This document shows positions 13,253 through 24,894 of a stretch of 64,000 nt of DNA, one piece after another. The notes beneath the pieces were generated by a model. The model was not told where the DNA came from. It ran no database searches and saw only the letters and a list, made by a program, of their open reading frames with translations. Source of the DNA: Streptomyces sp. NBC_00234. Lineage in GTDB: Bacteria; Actinomycetota; Actinomycetes; Streptomycetales; Streptomycetaceae. The position numbers and the translations under genes were made by a program. The stretch is taken from assembly GCF_036195325.1 (NCBI RefSeq), contig NZ_CP108101.1, forward strand, positions 992,001-1,056,000. The letters are read 5' to 3'. Within the stretch, counting starts at the first letter, position 1; each line of letters starts with the position of its first letter.

Positions 13253-13930
13253 ATGGATGCGGAAACGGGATACGAGATGACCACCGTCCCCCCGGGGACG
13301 GTGACGCTGTCCGACCGGCGGACGCAGCGCCGTTGGTCGGTCGGGATCTCCCCGTTCGAGCTCGCCGCGGTCCCGGTCACCCAGGCGCGGTACGCACAGG
13401 TCACCGGCGGGCGGCCGAGCACCGCGCACGGTGACCGGCTGCCCGTCGAGGGCGTTTCGTGGCTGGACGCGGTCCGGTTCTGCAACGCCCTGTCCGGCGC
13501 CGAGGGGCTGACGCCCGCGTACGGCATCCGCGGGGACGACGCCCAGGACGTCGAGTGGGACGCCTCCGCCGACGGATACCGGCTGCCGACCGAGGCCGAG
13601 TGGGAGCACGCCTGCCGTGCGGGGACGACGGACGCGCGGTACGGCCGCCTCGACGAGATCGCCTGGCATCGCGGCAACTCGCAGGAGCGGATGCACGAGG
13701 TCGGCGGCAAGCAGCCCAACGCGTGGGGCCTGCACGACATGCTGGGCAACGTGTGGGAGTGGTGCTGGGACGTCTACGACCCCGAGGTCTACGGAACCTA
13801 CCGAGTGCTGCGCGGCGGTGGCTGGTTCGACGAACGGTGGAGCTGCCGGGCGTCGGTACGCCGCCGCAGCCACCCGACGTTCCGGATCGACGACGTGGGT
13901 TTCCGCCTCGCACGGTCCGTCGCGCGGTGA
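13253..13930 (+). CDS. SUMF1/FGE-like domain protein, lacks one active-site Cys
   Basis: A 225-aa single-domain protein of the formylglycine-generating-enzyme fold. Diagnostic segments are PFELAAVPVTQARYAQVTGG, YRLPTEAEWEHACRAGT, NAWGLHDMLGNVWEWCWDVY and VLRGGGWFDERWSC. In true FGEs the last segment has two copper-binding cysteines (RGGSYLCHDSYC-type). Here the first position is Asp193 and only Cys198 remains, so sulfatase activation is doubtful and a structural or other enzymatic role is likely. ATG 13253 is used; ATG 13277 is an alternative. It directly follows tetR by 9 bp. Confidence 0.85.
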   Translation: MDAETGYEMTTVPPGTVTLSDRRTQRRWSVGISPFELAAVPVTQARYAQVTGGRPSTAHGDRLPVEGVSWLDAVRFCNALSGAEGLTPAYGIRGDDAQDVEWDASADGYRLPTEAEWEHACRAGTTDARYGRLDEIAWHRGNSQERMHEVGGKQPNAWGLHDMLGNVWEWCWDVYDPEVYGTYRVLRGGGWFDERWSCRASVRRRSHPTFRIDDVGFRLARSVAR

Positions 13931-17239: not shown

Positions 17240-17654
17240 CCGTTCCCGCGCGGCGCGGGAACGCCTTGCCCGGCCGGTCCGGTGGCGTGACCTGGCGGAG
17301 CCACGAGCCGGGCCCGGCGGAACCTGCACACCGAATGCGCAGTCCGGTCACGGCCTTCCACCCGCGGCCACAGGCCCGGACCAGTGCGCAGCGTCTTTGG
17401 TGCGGAAGTGTCCGACTTCAAGCAAAAGGACTTCCGACCAAAGGGAATTCAATTGGTGAAGCTCATGGAGGACCTGCCCCCAAAACATGAACACGCCTGC
17501 ACGCAAAGCTAGGTGATGGAGGGAAGAACCCCAGATCAGACGCCTTTCGATTGGCTGTGCCCGGCGCCCTCGTGCTTTGATCCTGACCCATGCGGGAGCC
17601 GCGAAAAGCGGTTCTCGACAAGGCACGAATTCCACACGAAGGGCAGCGCTCATC
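17240..17654. other. Upstream region of the peptide locus, with a long imperfect hairpin
   Basis: No gene is supported in these 415 bp, and the second half is less GC-rich than the surroundings. CTTTGGTGCGGAAGTGTCC (17395-17413) pairs with GGACTTCCGACCAAAG (17428-17443), with single-base bulges, around a 14-nt loop. It could be a terminator for readthrough, a 5'-UTR element or a protein site for the peptide operon. No confident -35/-10 pair was found; TTGATC at 17577 has no good partner. Confidence 0.55.
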
Positions 17655-17861
17655 ATGAACTTCACCCCCCAGGTCGAGACCGCCGAGATTTCCGACGCCG
17701 ACCTCGACAACGTCTCCGGCGGCCTCGTGGGCGGCGTGCTCGGCAACGTCACCGCCACGGCCGACTCGATCGCCCCGGTCTCCGGCATCGTCGGTTCGGT
17801 CACCGGTGTGAACACCGGTGCCGTCAGCGGTCTGGCCACCGGTCTCGTCTCCGGTCTCTGA
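17655..17861 (+). CDS. Double-glycine-leader secreted peptide precursor
   Basis: A 68-aa precursor. ATG 17655 follows a weak AAGGG. Residues 1-23 are a classic double-glycine leader with the recognition segment AEISDADLDNVSGG, predicting cleavage after Gly23 by the C39 peptidase encoded downstream. The predicted 45-residue core has no Cys, Lys, Arg or aromatic residue, one Asp and one Pro; it holds 10 Gly and 9 Val. From core Gly24 to Gly44 a Gly occurs every fourth residue (GSVTGVNTGAVSGLATGLVS), mostly preceded by Thr or Ser. The absence of Cys excludes lanthionine or disulfide bridges. A membrane-inserting, self-associating or fibre-forming peptide is plausible. The product name bacteriocin is inference from the exporter type. 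Confidence 0.82.
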   Translation: MNFTPQVETAEISDADLDNVSGGLVGGVLGNVTATADSIAPVSGIVGSVTGVNTGAVSGLATGLVSGL

Positions 17862-17873
17862 GACTGTGCGTGC

Positions 17874-17899
17874 GCCCCGGAACCCTTCGGTTCCGGGGC
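17874..17899 (+). terminator. Intercistronic hairpin (attenuator-like) after the precursor gene
   Basis: GCCCCGGAACC and GGTTCCGGGGC form a perfect 11-bp stem with a CTTC loop, 12 bp after the precursor stop and 35 bp before the HlyD-like gene. Such elements in peptide operons limit readthrough so that precursor mRNA exceeds exporter mRNA, or protect its 3' end. Confidence 0.75.
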
Positions 17900-17934
17900 T
17901 CATCGCCGAAAGCGACAGGTGAGGGAAGAGTTCC

Positions 17935-18741
17935 GTGCGCTTCCGCCAACAGGCCCTTTCCAAGCTCCAGTCGCCGGAGGAGCTCGACCTCCCGGTGCGT
18001 TTCGCCCGTCCGCAGGGCCGGCTCGTCCTGGGTGTCACCCTGGCCGTCATGGCCGCGGCCTGCTTCTGGGCCACGACGGGCACCGTCTCCTCCACCCGGA
18101 GCGCGCCCGGCATCCTCACGTACGCGCAGGGCAGTTACGTGCTCCAGAGCCCCGTCGCGGGCCAGATCACCGACGTACTCGCCGAGGAGGGCCGGACTCT
18201 CCCCGCCGGTTCACCCCTGCTCAAGGTCCGTACGGAGCAAGGGGACCGGGTCGTACGCACGATCGCCGCGGGCCGGCTGACCGCTCTCTCCGCCACGATC
18301 GGAGCCGTGGTCGCCACCGGAGCGGACGTGGCGAGCGTGGAGCGGATCGACGGCGCCGACGATCCCCTGATGGCGGTCCTGTACGTACCGGGCGACAGCG
18401 GCCAGGCCGTACCCGTGGGTGCCTCGGTCGATCTCACCGTCCAGGGCGTGCCCGCCCAGCAGTTCGGAGTGCTGCGCGGCCGGGTGACGGCCGTCGGCAG
18501 GGTCTCGCTGACCAGCCGGCAGATAGCCCGTTCCCTCGGTGACGACCAGCTCGGCGAGCAGTTCTCGCTGCACGGCAGGCCGGTGGCGGTCCTCGTGAAG
18601 CTCGAACGGTCGCCCGCGACGAAGTCCGGCTACCGGTGGTCGTCGCACCAGGGCCCCCCGTACGCGATCGGCTCCATGACCCCGGCCACGGGCGTCGTCC
18701 ACCTGGCCGACCAGCGCCCGATCGATTGGCTGCTCCCTTGA
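17935..18741 (+). CDS. HlyD-family membrane fusion protein of NHLM-type exporter
   Basis: A 268-aa protein starting at GTG 17935 with GGGAAGAG upstream. One transmembrane helix (LVLGVTLAVMAAACFWATTG) lies near residues 30-50. It is followed by a lipoyl/biotinyl-type half motif (GILTYAQGSYVLQSPVAGQI) and a beta-rich C-terminal domain with YVPGDSGQAVPVGASVDLTV. The arrangement matches the HlyD-like protein of NHLM bacteriocin systems (TIGR03794 type). In a Gram-positive it would form the extracellular collar of the ABC exporter. Its stop overlaps the TTG proposed as start of the next gene. Confidence 0.88.
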   Translation: MRFRQQALSKLQSPEELDLPVRFARPQGRLVLGVTLAVMAAACFWATTGTVSSTRSAPGILTYAQGSYVLQSPVAGQITDVLAEEGRTLPAGSPLLKVRTEQGDRVVRTIAAGRLTALSATIGAVVATGADVASVERIDGADDPLMAVLYVPGDSGQAVPVGASVDLTVQGVPAQQFGVLRGRVTAVGRVSLTSRQIARSLGDDQLGEQFSLHGRPVAVLVKLERSPATKSGYRWSSHQGPPYAIGSMTPATGVVHLADQRPIDWLLP

Positions 18742-21017
18742 CCGCCCCGCACGCCTCCCCCTCGACACAGCAGCTCCCGCCGCCCGGCCGCGGCCGGCAC
18801 CGTCCCGGCAAGGCGCCCGGCGACAGGGGCCGTTCACGTGCCCGGTCGGCGCCGAAGGGGCCGAAGCCGAAGACCGTCCGCAGCCCGACCGTCCTCCAGA
18901 TGGAAGCCCTGGAATGCGGCGCCGCCTCCCTGGCCATGGTCCTCGCGCACTACGGCAGGCATGTCCCCCTGGAGGAGCTGCGGATCGCCTGCGGCGTCTC
19001 GCGCGACGGCTCACGCGCCAGCAACGTACTGAAAGCGGCGCGCAGTTACGGGCTGCGGGCCAAGGGGATGCAGATGGAACCGGCCGCCCTCGCGGAGGTC
19101 CGGGCCCCGGCCATCCTGTTCTGGGAGTTCAACCACTACGTCGTGTACGACGGCATGGGACGCCGGCTCGGACGGCGCGGGGTGCACATCAACGACCCGG
19201 ACAAGGGCCGTCGGTTCGTCACCACGGAGGACTTCGACACCAGCTTCACCGGCATCGTCCTGGTCCTCGAACCCGACGACGGATTCCGGCGCGGCGGCAG
19301 GAAGCCCGGCATCATGGGGGCGTTGCCGGCCCGGCTGCGCGGCACCTCCGGCACGATGCTGGCCGCGCTGCTCGCCAGCATCCTGCTCGTGGCCGTCGGA
19401 GCGACGCTTCCGGCGCTCAGCCGTACGTACATCGACATGTTCCTGATCGGTGATCAGCGCTCCCTGCTGGGCGTGCTGTTCACGGCGATGGGCACCATGG
19501 TGGCGCTCACCGTCGTCCTGACCTGGCTGCAGCAGGCGAATCTGCTGCGCGGGCGCATCATCTCCTCCACGCTCGGCAGCGCCCGGTTCTTCCGGCATCT
19601 GCTCAGGCTGCCGGTCACCTTCTTCTCCCAGCGCAGCCCCGCGGACCTCGTCCAGCGTCTCCAGTCCAACGACGCGGTGGCCGAGACCCTCGCCCGGGAT
19701 CTCACAGCTGCGGGTGTGGACGGGATCGTCGTCCTCCTCTACGCCCTCCTGCTCTGGACGTACGATCCGCAGCTGACCGTCATCGGTGTGGGCCTCGCCC
19801 TCCTCAACGTCGTCGCGATGCGCGTCGTCGTACGTCTGCGGGCCACCGGTACCCAGAAGCTGCGGGCCGACAGCGCCCGGCTCACCAACACCTCGTACAC
19901 CGGCCTGCAGTTGATCGAGACGATGAAGGCCACCGGGGGCGAGGACGGATACTTCCGCCGCTGGGCCGGGCAGCACGCGACGACGCTCGACGAGCAGCAG
20001 CGCCTCGGTGTGCCGAGTGCGTGGCTGGGCATCGTCGCTCCCGCTCTGGCCACGTTCAACAGCGCGCTGATCCTCTGGATCGGCGGGCTGCGCGCGGTCG
20101 AGGGCGCCGTCTCGATCGGGCTGCTGGTCGCCTTCCAGTCCCTGGTGACCCGGTTCACCGCCCCGGTCACCCGGCTCAACGGGGTGGCGGGGCGCATCCA
20201 GGACTTCGCGGCCGACGTGGCGCGGCTGAAGGATGTGGAGAACTTCCCGGTGGATCCGCTCTACTCCCGGGAGGAGACCTCGTCGAGCACGCGCAGGCTG
20301 AAGGGACATGTGACGCTGGACGAGATCACCTTCGGCTACAGCCCGCTCGACAAGCCGCTGCTGACCGGCTTCTCGCTGTCCGTCGGACCGGGGCAGCAGG
20401 TGGCGCTGGTCGGCGGGTCCGGCAGCGGCAAGTCCACGGTGTCCCGGCTGATTTCGGGGCTGTACAGCCCGTGGGAGGGCACGATCCGCATCGACGGACA
20501 GCGCCTGGAGGACATTCCCCGCAGTGCGCTGGCCGCCTCGGTCTCCTTCGTCGACCAGGACGTCTTCCTCTTCGAGGGAACGGTCCGGGACAACGTGGCC
20601 CTGTGGGACCCCTCGGTCCCGGACGAGGCCGTCGTCGCGGCCCTCCAGGACGCGGCGCTGTACGAGGTCGTCGCCCGCCGGCCGGGCGGCATCCACGGCC
20701 GCGTGGAGCAGGACGGGCGCAACTTCTCCGGCGGTCAGCGGCAGCGTCTGGAGATCGCCCGGGCGCTGGTGCGCCGGCCGAGCGTCCTGGTGCTCGACGA
20801 GGTCACCAGCGCCCTGGACGCCGAGACCGAGCAGCTCGTCATCGACGCGCTGCGGCGACGGGGCTGCGCCTGCGTGGTGATCGCGCACCGGCTCAGCACC
20901 GTCCGCGACAGCGACGAGATCGTGGTGCTGGACCACGGCCGCGTGGTGGAGCGCGGACGGCACGAGGAACTGGTCGCCGCGGCGGGACCGTACGCCCAGC
21001 TGGTCAAGGAGCACTGA
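18738..21017 (+). CDS. NHLM-type ABC exporter with C39 peptidase (peptidase/permease/ATPase)
   Basis: About 759 aa from TTG 18738, which overlaps the HlyD stop (TTGA). The in-frame GTG at 18636 would overlap by 106 bp, and the first ATG lies within the peptidase. The N-terminal C39 peptidase (residues about 50-175) has every catalytic element: Gln54, Cys60 (MEALECGAASLAMVL), His133 (EFNHYVVYD) and Asp153 (HINDPDKG). A six-helix ABC membrane domain spans about 215-500. The C-terminal ATPase has Walker A GGSGSGKST, signature FSGGQRQR and Walker B VLVLDEVTSALD. It should cleave the double-glycine leader and export the peptide. It matches the TIGR03796-type NHLM ABC1 proteins. Confidence 0.95.
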   Translation: MTAPHASPSTQQLPPPGRGRHRPGKAPGDRGRSRARSAPKGPKPKTVRSPTVLQMEALECGAASLAMVLAHYGRHVPLEELRIACGVSRDGSRASNVLKAARSYGLRAKGMQMEPAALAEVRAPAILFWEFNHYVVYDGMGRRLGRRGVHINDPDKGRRFVTTEDFDTSFTGIVLVLEPDDGFRRGGRKPGIMGALPARLRGTSGTMLAALLASILLVAVGATLPALSRTYIDMFLIGDQRSLLGVLFTAMGTMVALTVVLTWLQQANLLRGRIISSTLGSARFFRHLLRLPVTFFSQRSPADLVQRLQSNDAVAETLARDLTAAGVDGIVVLLYALLLWTYDPQLTVIGVGLALLNVVAMRVVVRLRATGTQKLRADSARLTNTSYTGLQLIETMKATGGEDGYFRRWAGQHATTLDEQQRLGVPSAWLGIVAPALATFNSALILWIGGLRAVEGAVSIGLLVAFQSLVTRFTAPVTRLNGVAGRIQDFAADVARLKDVENFPVDPLYSREETSSSTRRLKGHVTLDEITFGYSPLDKPLLTGFSLSVGPGQQVALVGGSGSGKSTVSRLISGLYSPWEGTIRIDGQRLEDIPRSALAASVSFVDQDVFLFEGTVRDNVALWDPSVPDEAVVAALQDAALYEVVARRPGGIHGRVEQDGRNFSGGQRQRLEIARALVRRPSVLVLDEVTSALDAETEQLVIDALRRRGCACVVIAHRLSTVRDSDEIVVLDHGRVVERGRHEELVAAAGPYAQLVKEH

Positions 21018-21018
21018 G

Positions 21019-23877
21019 GTGGTATCCGTACACCCGGTCGCGGACCCCGGAGCCATGGGGCACGACGCGGTCATCGGCGCGCTGGGCGGCCTCGGCCGGC
21101 AGATCGAGTGCACCGGTCTGCGCAGCCTCTCCCTGGAGGGGCCGCAGGTGCTGTGGCTCGTCCTCGGCGGCGCGCTGGACCTGTTCGCGGTCGACACGGT
21201 GGAGCAGGGTCACTGGCATTTCCTGGGCCGGCTGGAACCTGGGACGCTGCTCCTGGGACCGGTCGAGGGGCCGCAGCACACCCTGATCGGCAGGCCGCTC
21301 CAGGGCTGCGTGCTGCGCCGGATCGCGCTGCGGGAGCTGTACCGGCCCGAGTATCCGCACCCCGGTACCCACGAGGGCCAGTACCTCAGCCGGTACGACA
21401 CCGGGGACGGCACGCTGAGTCTGCTGGAGCACGCCTTCTCCCTCGGGGTGGGTCGCGGTCAGCGCGTCCTGTTCGAAGCCCCGCTGGACGGCCGGACCGC
21501 TCTCGACGAGACGCCGGCCGACGACGACGTGCTGTGGCTCCCGGTCTCGCCGGGCAGTGTGCAGTACGGCGCCGCGTTCAGCGCGGAGGCGGCCGGTGAT
21601 CTGCTCGTCGACGGCGAGCTGTGGCAGGGCATGGTCAACCGGCAGTACCGGTTGCTGTCCGCGCTGGACCGCTGGATCGAGCGGCTGGAGCGTGCGCACG
21701 AGGACCGGGCGGCGGCCGGCATCAAGGCGGGCGAAGCCGTACGGGACGAGGCCGACCGGGCTCTGCTCACCTCCATAGGCCGTAGCGGGAGGGCCGCGGC
21801 CCCTGCCGCGGGAGCCGGTGACGACGCCACGTACGCGGCCTGCCGGCTGGTCGCGGGTGCGGCCGGCATCACGCTCGCGCAGCCCCCGCCGGGTGACGTA
21901 GTGAACGACCGGACGGACCCGGTCGAGCGGGTCGCGGTCCACTCGCGGGTCCGGACCCGCGCGGTCCGGCTCACCGGCCGCTGGTGGCGGGAGAACGCCG
22001 GCCCGCTGGTGGGCCACCGGTCCGCCACGGGCACCCCGGTCGCCCTGCTGTGGCGCCGGGGCCGCTACGAGGCGGTCAATCCGGTGACCGGCCGCAGGAC
22101 CCGTGTCGACAGCAGGCATGCCGGTGACTTCGAGCAGCGCGCCGTCATGTTCTACCGCCCCCTGCCCGAAAGGCCGTTGAGCAAGTGGCGGCTGCTGCGT
22201 TTCGGTCTGCGCGGTACGGGGGCCGATCTGCGCAGCCTGGCGCTGGCCGGGCCGGTGACGGTCGGGCTCGGCGCGCTGGTCCCGGTCGCGACGGGGCAGA
22301 TCCTGGGTGTCCATGTGCCCAACGCCGAGACCGGCCTCATCGCGCAGGTCTCACTGGCCGTGATCATCGCCGGGGTGGTCTCGGCCGCCTTCATGCTGCT
22401 GCAGAACCTCACGGTCCTGCGGATGGAGGGCCGCATCGAGAGCACCCTCCAACCGGCGGTGTGGGACCGGCTGCTGCGGCTGCCGACCTCGTTCTTCGCC
22501 GAGCGGTCCACCGGGGAGCTGGCGAGCGCGGCGATGGGTGTCAGTGCGATCCGGCGCGTCCTGTCGGGTGTCGGGCCCGTCGCCCTCCAGGCGGGCACGG
22601 TCGGCGCGATGAACCTATTCCTGCTGTTCTGGTTCAGTGCGCCGCTGGCGCTGGCCGCGATCGGGATGCTGATCGTGATCTCCGCGGTGTTCCTCACCAT
22701 GGGGATGTGGGAGCTGCGGTGGCAGCGCAGTCTGGTGGAGCTCGGCAACAAACTCAACAACCAGGCGTTCCAGACGCTGCGCGGGCTGCCCAAACTGCGT
22801 GTGGCCGGGGCGGAGAGCTTCGCGTACGCCTCCTGGGCCCGGGAGTTCGCCCGCAGCCGTGAGCTCCAGCAGCGGGCCGGCCGGATCAAGAATCTGACGA
22901 CGGTCCTCGACGCGACCTATCTGCCGCTGTGTTCACTGGCCATGTTCGTCCTGCTGGCGGGGCCTGCCCGGGGGTCGCTGTCGGCGAGTGCCTTCCTGAC
23001 GTTCAACACCTCCGTGACGATGCTGCTGGCCTCGGTCACCCAGCTCACCGGGGCGTTCGTCTCGGCTGCGGCGGCGCTGCCGATGTTCGAGCAGATCAAG
23101 CCCCTGCTCGACGCGGCACCCGAGGTGCGCGGTGCGAGCACCCAGCCGGGGCCGTTGTCCGGGGCGATCGAGGTCAGAGGGGTCTCCTTCCGGTACGCCG
23201 ACGACGGTCCGGCGGTGCTGGACGAGGTGTCGCTGACGGTGGGGGCCGGCGAGTTCGTGGCGGTGGTGGGGCCCAGCGGCTGCGGGAAGTCGACGCTGCT
23301 GCGGCTGCTCATAGGCTTCGACCGGCCCGCCACGGGGAGTGTCCTGTACGACGGTCAGGACCTGGCGGCGCTCGACCAGGCGGCCGTACGCCGCCAGTGC
23401 GGGGTCGTGCTGCAGAATGCCCAGCCGTTCACGGGATCGATCCTGGAGTGCGTCTGCGGCTCCGAGGTGTTCACCGAGGAGGAGGTCTGGGAGGCCGCCG
23501 CGCTGGCGGGTCTCGCCGAGGACATCAAGCGGATGCCGATGGGGCTGCACACCATGATCTCCGGCGGCGGCGCGATCTCCGGTGGTCAGCGGCAGCGGCT
23601 GATGATCGCCCAGGCGCTCGTGCGCCGTCCCCGCATCCTGTTCTTCGACGAGGCCACCAGCGCCCTGGACAACGAGACCCAGCGCATCGTGATCGAGAGC
23701 ACCCGGGCGCTGCGGGCGACCCGGGTCGTGATCGCACACCGGCTCTCCACGGTGCTGGACGCCGACCGGGTGATCGTCATGTCGGAGGGCCGCGTCGTAC
23801 AGCAGGGTCCGCCCGCCGAGCTGCTCGCGGACCCGGGCGGACGGCTGCACGAGTTGGTGCGGCGCCAGATGCAGTAG
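21019..23877 (+). CDS. NHLM-type ABC exporter permease/ATPase subunit
   Basis: A 952-aa protein from GTG 21019, 1 nt after the previous stop; ATG 21055 is an alternative. The first ~380 residues form a cytoplasmic region lacking a peptidase. It is partly cyclic-nucleotide-binding-like in pattern (ALDLFAVDTVEQGHWHFLGR then LEPGTLLLGP). An ABC membrane domain with six helices covers about 400-690. The ATPase has Walker A GPSGCGKST, signature ISGGQRQR and Walker B ILFFDEATSALD. The architecture matches the TIGR03797-type second transporter of NHLM systems, thought to form a heterodimer with the peptidase-bearing half. It is the last gene of the peptide operon. Confidence 0.94.
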   Translation: MVSVHPVADPGAMGHDAVIGALGGLGRQIECTGLRSLSLEGPQVLWLVLGGALDLFAVDTVEQGHWHFLGRLEPGTLLLGPVEGPQHTLIGRPLQGCVLRRIALRELYRPEYPHPGTHEGQYLSRYDTGDGTLSLLEHAFSLGVGRGQRVLFEAPLDGRTALDETPADDDVLWLPVSPGSVQYGAAFSAEAAGDLLVDGELWQGMVNRQYRLLSALDRWIERLERAHEDRAAAGIKAGEAVRDEADRALLTSIGRSGRAAAPAAGAGDDATYAACRLVAGAAGITLAQPPPGDVVNDRTDPVERVAVHSRVRTRAVRLTGRWWRENAGPLVGHRSATGTPVALLWRRGRYEAVNPVTGRRTRVDSRHAGDFEQRAVMFYRPLPERPLSKWRLLRFGLRGTGADLRSLALAGPVTVGLGALVPVATGQILGVHVPNAETGLIAQVSLAVIIAGVVSAAFMLLQNLTVLRMEGRIESTLQPAVWDRLLRLPTSFFAERSTGELASAAMGVSAIRRVLSGVGPVALQAGTVGAMNLFLLFWFSAPLALAAIGMLIVISAVFLTMGMWELRWQRSLVELGNKLNNQAFQTLRGLPKLRVAGAESFAYASWAREFARSRELQQRAGRIKNLTTVLDATYLPLCSLAMFVLLAGPARGSLSASAFLTFNTSVTMLLASVTQLTGAFVSAAAALPMFEQIKPLLDAAPEVRGASTQPGPLSGAIEVRGVSFRYADDGPAVLDEVSLTVGAGEFVAVVGPSGCGKSTLLRLLIGFDRPATGSVLYDGQDLAALDQAAVRRQCGVVLQNAQPFTGSILECVCGSEVFTEEEVWEAAALAGLAEDIKRMPMGLHTMISGGGAISGGQRQRLMIAQALVRRPRILFFDEATSALDNETQRIVIESTRALRATRVVIAHRLSTVLDADRVIVMSEGRVVQQGPPAELLADPGGRLHELVRRQMQ

Positions 23878-24054
23878 GGGCCCGGTCCGTCCGGGCCGAA
23901 TCTCCCGGCCGAATGGGGGCGTCCTGGTCCGGCGCGGGGCACGGATCCGCACCCGCTCCTACGCTCGGTGGCAGGGCGCGTGCGGAGAGTTCCGGTCGGG
24001 GGTGACGGAAGCCTGCCGGGCGGCCATGGGAAGCACCCCCCGAGGAGAGCCGTC

Positions 24055-24894
24055 ATGACCGAAGCAACCGATCCCGTCGAGGCCGACCGGGCACTCAAGA
24101 CCAGACACCGGAAGATGTGGGCCCTGGGGGACTACCCCGTGGTGGCCGCCCGGCTGATCCCGGACCTCGGCCCGGACCTGGTCCGGGCCTGCGGTGTACG
24201 GAGCGGCGAGCGCGTCCTGGACGTCGCGGCCGGATCGGGCAACGCCGCCATCCCCGCGGCCCTGGCCGGCGCGGAGGTCGTGGCGTGCGACCTGACGCCC
24301 GAACTGCTGGCGGCCGGGCAGGAACTGGCGGCCGTGCGCGGTGTCGGGCTGGAGTGGAGGGTGGGGGACGCGGAGGCGCTGCCCTTCGACGACGACGCGT
24401 TCGACACCGTGATGTCGTGCGTGGGCATCATGTTCGCCCCGCATCACCAGGCAGGGGCCGACGAGCTGGTCCGTGTCTGCCGTCCCGGCGGCACGATCGG
24501 CCTGCTCAACTGGACCCCGGAAGGGTTCATCGGCCAGATGTTCGCCGCGATGAAGCCGTACGCCCCCACGCCGCCGCCCGGGGCGCAGCCCCCGCCGCTG
24601 TGGGGGCGGGAGGACCACGTCCGTGCGCTGCTCGGCGACCGGGTGACGGACGTCGAGGTGCAGCGGCGGACCGTACGGGTCGATCTGTTCGGGAAGCCCG
24701 GTGACTTCAGGGAGTTCTTCAAGGCCAACTACGGGCCGACCATCGCGACGTACCGGCACATCGCGGAGGACCCGGAACGGGTCGCCGCTCTGGACAGCGC
24801 TCTCGACGACCTCGCGTCGCGCCACACCGACGGGGCGGGCCCGACGGGCATGGACTGGGAATACCTGCTGGTCACCGCACACAAGCGCGGCTGA
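24055..24894 (+). CDS. Class I SAM-dependent methyltransferase
   Basis: A 279-aa protein; ATG 24055 follows GAGGAGA. Motif I VLDVAAGSGNAAIPAALAGA is canonical, followed by ACDLTPELLAAG (acidic end of strand 2), GDAEALPFDDDAFDTVMSCV (motif post I/II) and RVCRPGGTIGLLNWTPEGF. It belongs to the UbiE/Methyltransf_11 type. It starts 177 bp after the exporter operon and has no shared promoter evidence, so whether it acts on the secreted peptide is unknown; it is more likely independent. Confidence 0.92.
   Translation: MTEATDPVEADRALKTRHRKMWALGDYPVVAARLIPDLGPDLVRACGVRSGERVLDVAAGSGNAAIPAALAGAEVVACDLTPELLAAGQELAAVRGVGLEWRVGDAEALPFDDDAFDTVMSCVGIMFAPHHQAGADELVRVCRPGGTIGLLNWTPEGFIGQMFAAMKPYAPTPPPGAQPPPLWGREDHVRALLGDRVTDVEVQRRTVRVDLFGKPGDFREFFKANYGPTIATYRHIAEDPERVAALDSALDDLASRHTDGAGPTGMDWEYLLVTAHKRG

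Follow-up and report, generated by a model that had tools for sequence, protein, structure and literature searches.

We analyzed a peptide-export cassette in a 64,000-nucleotide stretch of the genome of Streptomyces sp. NBC_00234 (NZ_CP108101.1, positions 992,001 to 1,056,000), hereafter called the window. The cassette consists of four genes, which encode a short precursor peptide with a double-glycine leader (the linked precursor), an HlyD-like protein (the adaptor), an exporter joining a C39 peptidase to an ATP-binding cassette (ABC) protein (ABC1), and a second NHLM-type ABC protein (ABC2). Comparison with relatives makes it fairly probable that the cassette belongs to one Streptomyces regulon of probably unmodified acidic peptides, which would be exported via one dedicated transporter. 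The features behind this reading, namely the cassette, a common leader, a common upstream element, the co-occurrence of leader and exporter among genomes, and the composition of the peptides, were read from sequence.

The cassette and its linked precursor

The four genes are co-directional and lie where an earlier note, made from the letters of the window, had placed them. The features of the locus are as follows.

17552-17582, + strand: promoter-like element TGG-N17-GTGCTTTGATC, a pattern common to unlinked precursor genes elsewhere; putative promoter
17655-17861, + strand: precursor gene, 68 amino acids (aa), with homologues in same-genus genomes
17655-17723, + strand: leader, 23 residues, ending at a double-glycine site (VSGG) of predicted cleavage
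17724-17858, + strand: core, 45 residues
17874-17899, + strand: hairpin with an 11-bp stem, directly after the precursor stop
17935-18741, + strand: HlyD-like adaptor gene, short form, 268 aa; TIGR03794 just below cut-off
18738-21017, + strand: C39 peptidase-ABC exporter gene (ABC1); TIGR03796; TTG start
21019-23877, + strand: second NHLM ABC gene, without a peptidase (ABC2), 952 aa; TIGR03797

The TTG start of ABC1 overlaps the adaptor stop (18738-18741) and a single base separates the ABC1 stop from ABC2, an arrangement that suggests translational coupling of the three exporter genes. Both ABC proteins exceeded their NCBIfam cut-offs (TIGR03796 for ABC1, 1005.4 vs. 853.3 bits; TIGR03797 for ABC2, 879.8 vs. 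709.4 bits), whereas the adaptor was a near miss for TIGR03794 (149.6 vs. 156.2 bits, E = 1.2e-43), its best stretch covering model positions 256-417 of 421, that is, a short form. The earlier assignment to an NHLM-type export locus therefore stands for the two ABC proteins, with the adaptor just under its threshold. The Gln/Cys/His/Asp set of ABC1, described in that note as intact, is Q54, C60, H133, and D153, which we take to be the catalytic set of the C39 peptidase and which was invariant in all 81 aligned ABC1 proteins. Residues 52-757 of the 759 in ABC1, peptidase included, are homologous to the solved C39 exporter 4ry2, and residues 54-757 to the ComA structure 8hf4; over the ABC part, eukaryotic ABCB1 structures outscored the C39 exporters. 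For the N-terminal ~265 aa of ABC2, the AlphaFold2 model (predicted local distance difference test [pLDDT] 47.2, predicted template modelling score [pTM] 0.42) was not taken into fold searches.

The comparison set for the window was the 80 best among 568 confirmed relatives; 77 of these 80 were titled Streptomyces, and two came from Actinacidiphila and Streptantibioticus. A precursor lay upstream of the adaptor and exporter in 76 of these 80 loci, and in the other four the contig ended within 892 bp ahead of the exporter match. When called genes of at least 60 aa from the 80 loci and the window (81 loci) were clustered, with at least 60 families listed, ABC1 and ABC2 were found in 81 loci; the adaptor was recovered from 78 and the precursor, by this method, from 75, and the next commonest neighbour family reached 16. 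The four genes are a discrete cassette. No tailoring or immunity gene of at least 60 aa was generally linked to it by this clustering, which a tiny immunity gene could escape. The earlier proposal had been made to depend on conservation of the small open reading frame (ORF) upstream of related exporters and on the lack of a tightly linked tailoring enzyme, and both were borne out across the loci.

We also searched 199 same-genus genomes, drawn evenly with one per species, the genus being taken as Streptomyces from the 77 of 80 nearest loci. The window precursor as a query matched 127 of these genomes, often with weaker extra matches elsewhere. With homologues in 127 of 199 genomes and a place ahead of the exporter in 76 of 80 loci, the small precursor ORF is not a chance ORF. 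The exporter is also present on two Streptomyces plasmids. On plasmid NZ_CP030074.1, the NHLM exporter is divergent (57% identity), its neighbours differ, and a 137-aa hypothetical protein, perhaps a different kind of precursor, is encoded upstream of the adaptor; a consensus-like precursor query had no match in the plasmid collection.

The window precursor has a leader of 23 residues (MNFTPQVETAEISDADLDNVSGG), confirming the earlier description of it as short. Its core contains no Cys, Lys, Arg, or aromatic residue, and its average mass is 4009.5 if linear and unmodified. Among the linked precursors (n = 76), leaders span 20-25 residues and cores 44-58; the core is 52 residues long in 42 of them, and the 45-residue window copy aligns with a 7-residue gap (alignment A1, 44 of 77 linked precursors). 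Cys is absent from all 76 linked precursors, Lys and Arg from 75 of the 76 cores, and Phe, Trp, and Tyr from 73, with net charges of -1 to -4 throughout. Thr, Ser, and Val abound in the linked cores (Val ~20%, Gly ~20%, Thr 15%).

Searches with these peptides returned no named family. The window precursor matched nothing in Pfam and nothing over the cut-off in NCBIfam; nor did it match the bacteriocin signature TIGR01847, for which ten relatives reached at best 14.5 bits vs. a cut-off of 15.7, and the precursors of ten relatives scanned against NCBIfam had no family over the cut-off, lanthipeptide families included. A precursor profile searched against solved structures gave nothing usable (best E = 0.38), and the AlphaFold2 model of the precursor family (pLDDT 58.9, pTM 0.24) was not taken into fold searches.

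Unlinked precursors and the shared upstream element

Small genes with the same leader and different cores lie apart from the cassette in other genomes, as seen in 20 places that were fetched and read. In total, 39 unlinked precursors from 33 genomes (20 + 18 + 1) formed six families when their cores were compared by BLASTP. A second clustering kept the linked family and the six unlinked ones as seven, with a best cross-family match of E = 0.079; in it, one member of the Cys-containing family was a singleton and two linked cores formed a separate pair. The unlinked cores are 42-56 residues long with net charges of -2 to -4. Neither the adaptor nor ABC1 or ABC2 was encoded in the 38 unlinked-precursor loci within the stretches examined, and no recurring enzyme was seen by eye beside the 20 unlinked genes with listed neighbours. 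Across linked and unlinked precursors, the cores are net acidic, have at most one Lys or Arg, are mostly Cys-free, and are usually rich in Gly, Ala, and Val. The window genome (8.27 Mb, one contig) has a single NHLM ABC1 over the cut-off and a single leader-bearing gene, the linked precursor, the two further matches (E 2.3-2.6) being noise. The earlier suggestion of a distinct class of exported, perhaps unmodified peptide is supported, but was incomplete, in that further precursors with other cores occur elsewhere in many relatives' genomes, whereas the window genome has the linked one only.

Leader and exporter co-occur among the 199 genomes. A 24-column leader profile, built from alignment A2 (17 linked and 20 unlinked precursors), matched 144 genomes, and the exporter family was found over the cut-off in 145. 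Both were present in 141, the leader only in 3, the exporter only in 4, and neither in 51 (Fisher's p = 8e-39). Among the three leader-only exceptions, one carries its adaptor at the edge of a contig, one carries its exporter in broken frames next to the precursor, and the third is an assembly 79% complete; the four exporter-only genomes hold the four lowest-scoring best exporter copies of the search. In genome G180 (locus L177), the cassette is accompanied by three leader matches, and its exporter reads in three frames, being either decayed or missequenced. We placed 100 of the 199 genomes on an rpoB tree: 61 with an exporter and all 39 without a called one that had a listed rpoB place. Its well supported branches carry no fewer than 16 changes in exporter presence, and of 16 independent pairs, the leader goes in the direction of the exporter in 13-14 and in the opposite direction in none. 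Two or more leader matches were found in 63 of 147 exporter genomes vs. none of 52 without (Fisher's p = 1e-10), a split that counts two explained leader-only exceptions as exporter-present. Searched against 394 genomes drawn at class level, the leader profile gave 35 matches, 30 in the same genus and 5 weak ones in others (E >= 2.5e-4).

An upstream alignment of the linked precursors revealed conserved blocks, one of which is the 12-bp element GTGCTTTGATCC. Within 300 bp before the start codon, this element was found at no more than three mismatches in 76 of 77 linked genes and at no more than one in 72. The first unlinked set contained it in 33 of 33 genes at no more than three mismatches (25 at no more than one) and the fuller set in 37 of 38 at no more than two (29 at no more than one), whereas control windows from the same loci (n = 6181) contained none at up to one mismatch and 25 at two. 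Ahead of the element (at up to two mismatches) stands a TGG, at a distance of 17 bases in 61 of 74 linked genes (16 bases in 1) and of 16 bases in 27 of 37 unlinked genes (17 bases in 9). This spacing resembles that of a -35/-10 pair, and we regard the composite as a putative promoter. The composite TGG-N16/17-GTGCTTTGATC occurs in 96 of the 199 genomes, and a reversed control pattern in none; of the 96, 95 have the exporter, the exception being the leader-only genome with its adaptor at the edge of a contig. We inspected 38 distinct composite sites (39 loci, one site twice), a sample that is not random, as nine of the loci were picked for being unlike precursor sites: a leader-bearing gene follows 30 of the sites and an unrelated small ORF 7, with neither at the remaining one. 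What makes the case for the element is that it precedes genes with nothing in common but a leader.

Two further observations concern the upstream regions. In the seven genomes with the unrelated small ORF, TGG-N16-GTGCTTTGATC stands just before or inside a conserved METTGQAHTVLLDPFWVSRRADQFDQVCC-like ORF; most of those read presumably lie upstream of an oxygenase-like or MFS-like gene (named by eye), and the ORF often ends in Cys codons, an ending that we take to be reminiscent of Cys attenuators. In addition, a second conserved block, TGTGAAG-like (GGTGAAG in the window, 17455-17461), lies ~110 bp upstream of the promoter-like element; within 300 bp upstream and at up to one mismatch, it was found in 75 of 77 linked genes, 49 of them exact, although it is a short word counted without a chance control.

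The hairpin that follows the precursor stop also recurs. Over the first 55 nt beyond the stop, the folding z fell below -2 in 60 of 76 linked loci; over 80 nt, it did so in 68 of 77 linked genes and in 30 of 38 unlinked ones. The linked hairpin may be a partial terminator or an mRNA-stabilising element, and it would favour expression of the peptide over that of the exporter; the hairpins after unlinked genes suggest single-gene transcripts.

A candidate regulon and its alternatives

We propose the following model, which draws on homology and genome context. The promoter-like element TGG-N16/17-GTGCTTTGATC would drive both the exporter operon and the unlinked single precursor genes, and the common leader of ~23 aa would be the recognition feature of every precursor. 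The C39 domain of ABC1 would then cut the precursor after Gly-Gly, and the ABC1/ABC2 pair with its short adaptor would export the 42-58-residue core. In the window genome, the exporter would serve the linked precursor only, no other being present. Promoter activity, cleavage, export of the unlinked precursors by this exporter, the absence of modification, and the biological role are the parts that we infer. The cores are probably secreted unmodified, and perhaps act extracellularly as self-associating or surface-active peptides rather than as classical cationic bacteriocins. The similar make-up of otherwise dissimilar cores points to a physical role outside the cell (coat, matrix, or assembly) more than to that of a cationic antimicrobial; this role is a guess, and one distinctly more apt to be wrong than right.

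Several observations weigh against this model. As 20 of the 37 rows of the leader profile came from the same genomes that were searched, their recovery is by construction. The linked precursor and the exporter would be lost jointly, as expected of one operon, which explains much of the co-occurrence. The test on genomes with two or more leader matches is weak after correction for the tree (a median of 4 among 15 pairs agreed in direction and none ran contrary; median p = 0.125), and the unlinked status of second leader matches is established for the 39 that were read. The composition of the cores is not uniform either: one Lys or Arg is present in 13 of the 39 unlinked cores (none in 26), and one Cys in 5, all of a single family. 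The exact composite stands beside an unrelated small ORF in 7 genomes and beside neither kind of gene once; the element, if a promoter, may thus not be exclusive to these peptides, or the seven sites may be a coding coincidence in one gene family. Moreover, the short element alone is weak in a single genome: allowing one mismatch, we counted 23 sites of the 11-mer in the window genome vs. 11 of a reversed control, one of the two exact 11-mer sites lying inside a 337-aa ORF, and for the 12-mer with two mismatches allowed, 2 sites in the window (one exact) vs. 2.5 expected. Finally, an enzyme acting on the cores in trans is possible.

That last point can be developed into a full alternative, in which the precursors are ribosomally synthesized and post-translationally modified peptides (RiPPs) that are altered before export, the enzyme (such as an epimerase, hydroxylase, methyltransferase, or dehydratase) having its gene elsewhere. 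Passages of two studies report distant precursors and modification enzymes for related systems (PMC2887384, PMC3140520). The abundance of Thr, Ser, and Val in the linked cores also suits such a reading, as does the co-directional SAM methyltransferase gene (ORF 23968-24894) that follows ABC2 in the window. That gene is the one qualification to the earlier statement that no LanM, YcaO, radical SAM, or immunity gene adjoins the cassette, which was otherwise upheld: a Pfam scan of the ten flanking window genes found no LanM, YcaO, radical SAM, or known immunity domain. Conversely, no enzyme family is common beside the exporter, none was seen by eye to recur beside the 20 unlinked genes, and the lack of Cys makes thioether and thiazole chemistry impossible in the linked cores. 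We regard modification in trans as unlikely. By Pfam, the window cassette is flanked by electron transfer flavoprotein (ETF) subunits upstream and by the methyltransferase and a GMC oxidoreductase downstream, and an FGE-sulfatase-domain protein (13253-13930) stands beside a TetR-domain regulator 4 kb upstream. We rejected the ETF, methyltransferase, GMC oxidoreductase, and FGE-sulfatase-like neighbours as parts of the cassette, as they fall outside the families listed as common to at least 3 of 80 loci.

Unmodified bacteriocins similar to class II would have glycine-spaced hydrophobic cores that enter competitor membranes, with self-protection either intrinsic or encoded elsewhere. Such peptides would fit the double-glycine leader and a C39 exporter homologous to the bacteriocin and pheromone exporters 4ry2 and 8hf4, and L110, which belongs to unlinked family B, matches both a class IIb bacteriocin family and the bacteriocin signature, though below threshold. 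The cores also change faster than the exporter: among 20 loci with 52-residue cores, the nonsynonymous difference (pN) was 0.204 in the core vs. 0.053 in ABC1 (~4x) and about twice that of the leader. This ~4x excess, which also counts against our model, fits loose compositional constraint as well as diversifying bacteriocins. The median dN/dS values (Nei-Gojobori) were 0.81 for the core, 0.40 for the leader, and 0.11 for ABC1, but are hard to read since the synonymous difference (pS) of the precursor is low. Among the 20 relatives, pS was 0.155 in the leader and 0.213 in the core vs. 0.354 in ABC1, which suggests codon bias for high expression or a constraint on the RNA. Typical bacteriocins are cationic, whereas the linked cores carry net charges of -1 to -4 (76 of 76) and lack Lys and Arg in 75 of 76. 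Additionally, no common immunity gene of at least 60 aa was found in the 81 loci, and the exporter is present in as many as 145 of 199 genomes of the genus. A bacteriocin function seems improbable to us on this balance.

Another possibility is that the peptides are secreted pheromone-like signals coordinating development or antibiotic production. The homology of the exporter to ComA (8hf4), a sub-threshold match of one family E member (L116) to the VP1 pheromone family, and the co-regulation suggested by the common upstream element are consistent with signalling. However, no widely common receptor- or kinase-candidate family occurs near the cassette, and hydrophobic cores of 42-58 residues are long for pheromones; we consider this function rather improbable. 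A class II (type A2) lanthipeptide, a name given in PMC13047742 to a gene from a region that also contains a Peptidase_C39 gene, can hardly be what the cassette encodes, and we rejected it for the linked peptides, as the lack of Cys in all 76 precursors makes lanthionines impossible there, no lanthipeptide family exceeded the NCBIfam cut-off, and no LanM was found in the ten flanking genes.

Relation to known systems

Class II unmodified bacteriocins and ComC/BlpC-type peptides combine a short GG leader with a PCAT/ComA exporter (C39-ABC) and an accessory protein. The unmodified acidic peptides proposed here would share with those systems the double-glycine leader and a C39 exporter homologous to 4ry2 and 8hf4, but the cassette differs in its second ABC protein, in having no common immunity or sensor gene, and in its acidic, Lys/Arg-poor cores. 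The exporter family itself is already known (PMC2887384): in the passages of that study on the NHLM/NHLP system, the same three components (TIGR03794, TIGR03796, and TIGR03797) are described, the exporter is more widely distributed than NHLP precursors, and precursors may sit far from export genes. There, the average end of the leader is residue 83 for NHLP and residue 70 for N11P, and the peptides are interpreted as modified. The system described here differs from these in its 20-25-residue leaders, in having no common enzyme, and in its common upstream element; no nitrile-hydratase-like or Nif11-like long leader was found in the window precursor (23 residues, no Pfam or NCBIfam family over the cut-off). 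Cyanobacterial double-glycine bacteriocin clusters, as covered in part of PMC3140520, likewise include a C39 ABC protein, a second ABC protein, an HlyD protein, and diverse cores, with some precursors distant, whereas here one linked precursor is joined by unlinked single ones, and the cores are acidic and mostly Cys-free. The Streptomyces gene labelled 'type A2 lantipeptide' in a Peptidase_C39 region in PMC13047742 (2026) is a possible relative.

We found no description of this Streptomyces peptide set or of its common element in the open-licence literature. This, together with the lack of any NCBIfam family (or, for the window precursor, Pfam family) over the cut-off, places the peptide in no already named class, in line with the earlier view that it may be a distinct one.

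Streptomyces has been mined intensively for peptides, largely via their modifying enzymes. A set of peptides without such enzymes, encoded partly away from its exporter, would escape enzyme-based mining. The leader and the upstream element offer two independent handles for listing the peptide set in a genome, and the model predicts that one exporter processes cores without sequence similarity to each other. In its broadest form, the model describes a genus-wide regulon with one exporter, one leader, seven dissimilar core families, and one promoter-like element read by a sigma factor or regulator, the products of which would be acidic, unmodified, Lys/Arg-poor, and mostly Cys-free peptides of an undescribed class. 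That these peptides would build or tune the extracellular surface of Streptomyces completes this broad form, which we put forward tentatively, at somewhat less than an even chance.

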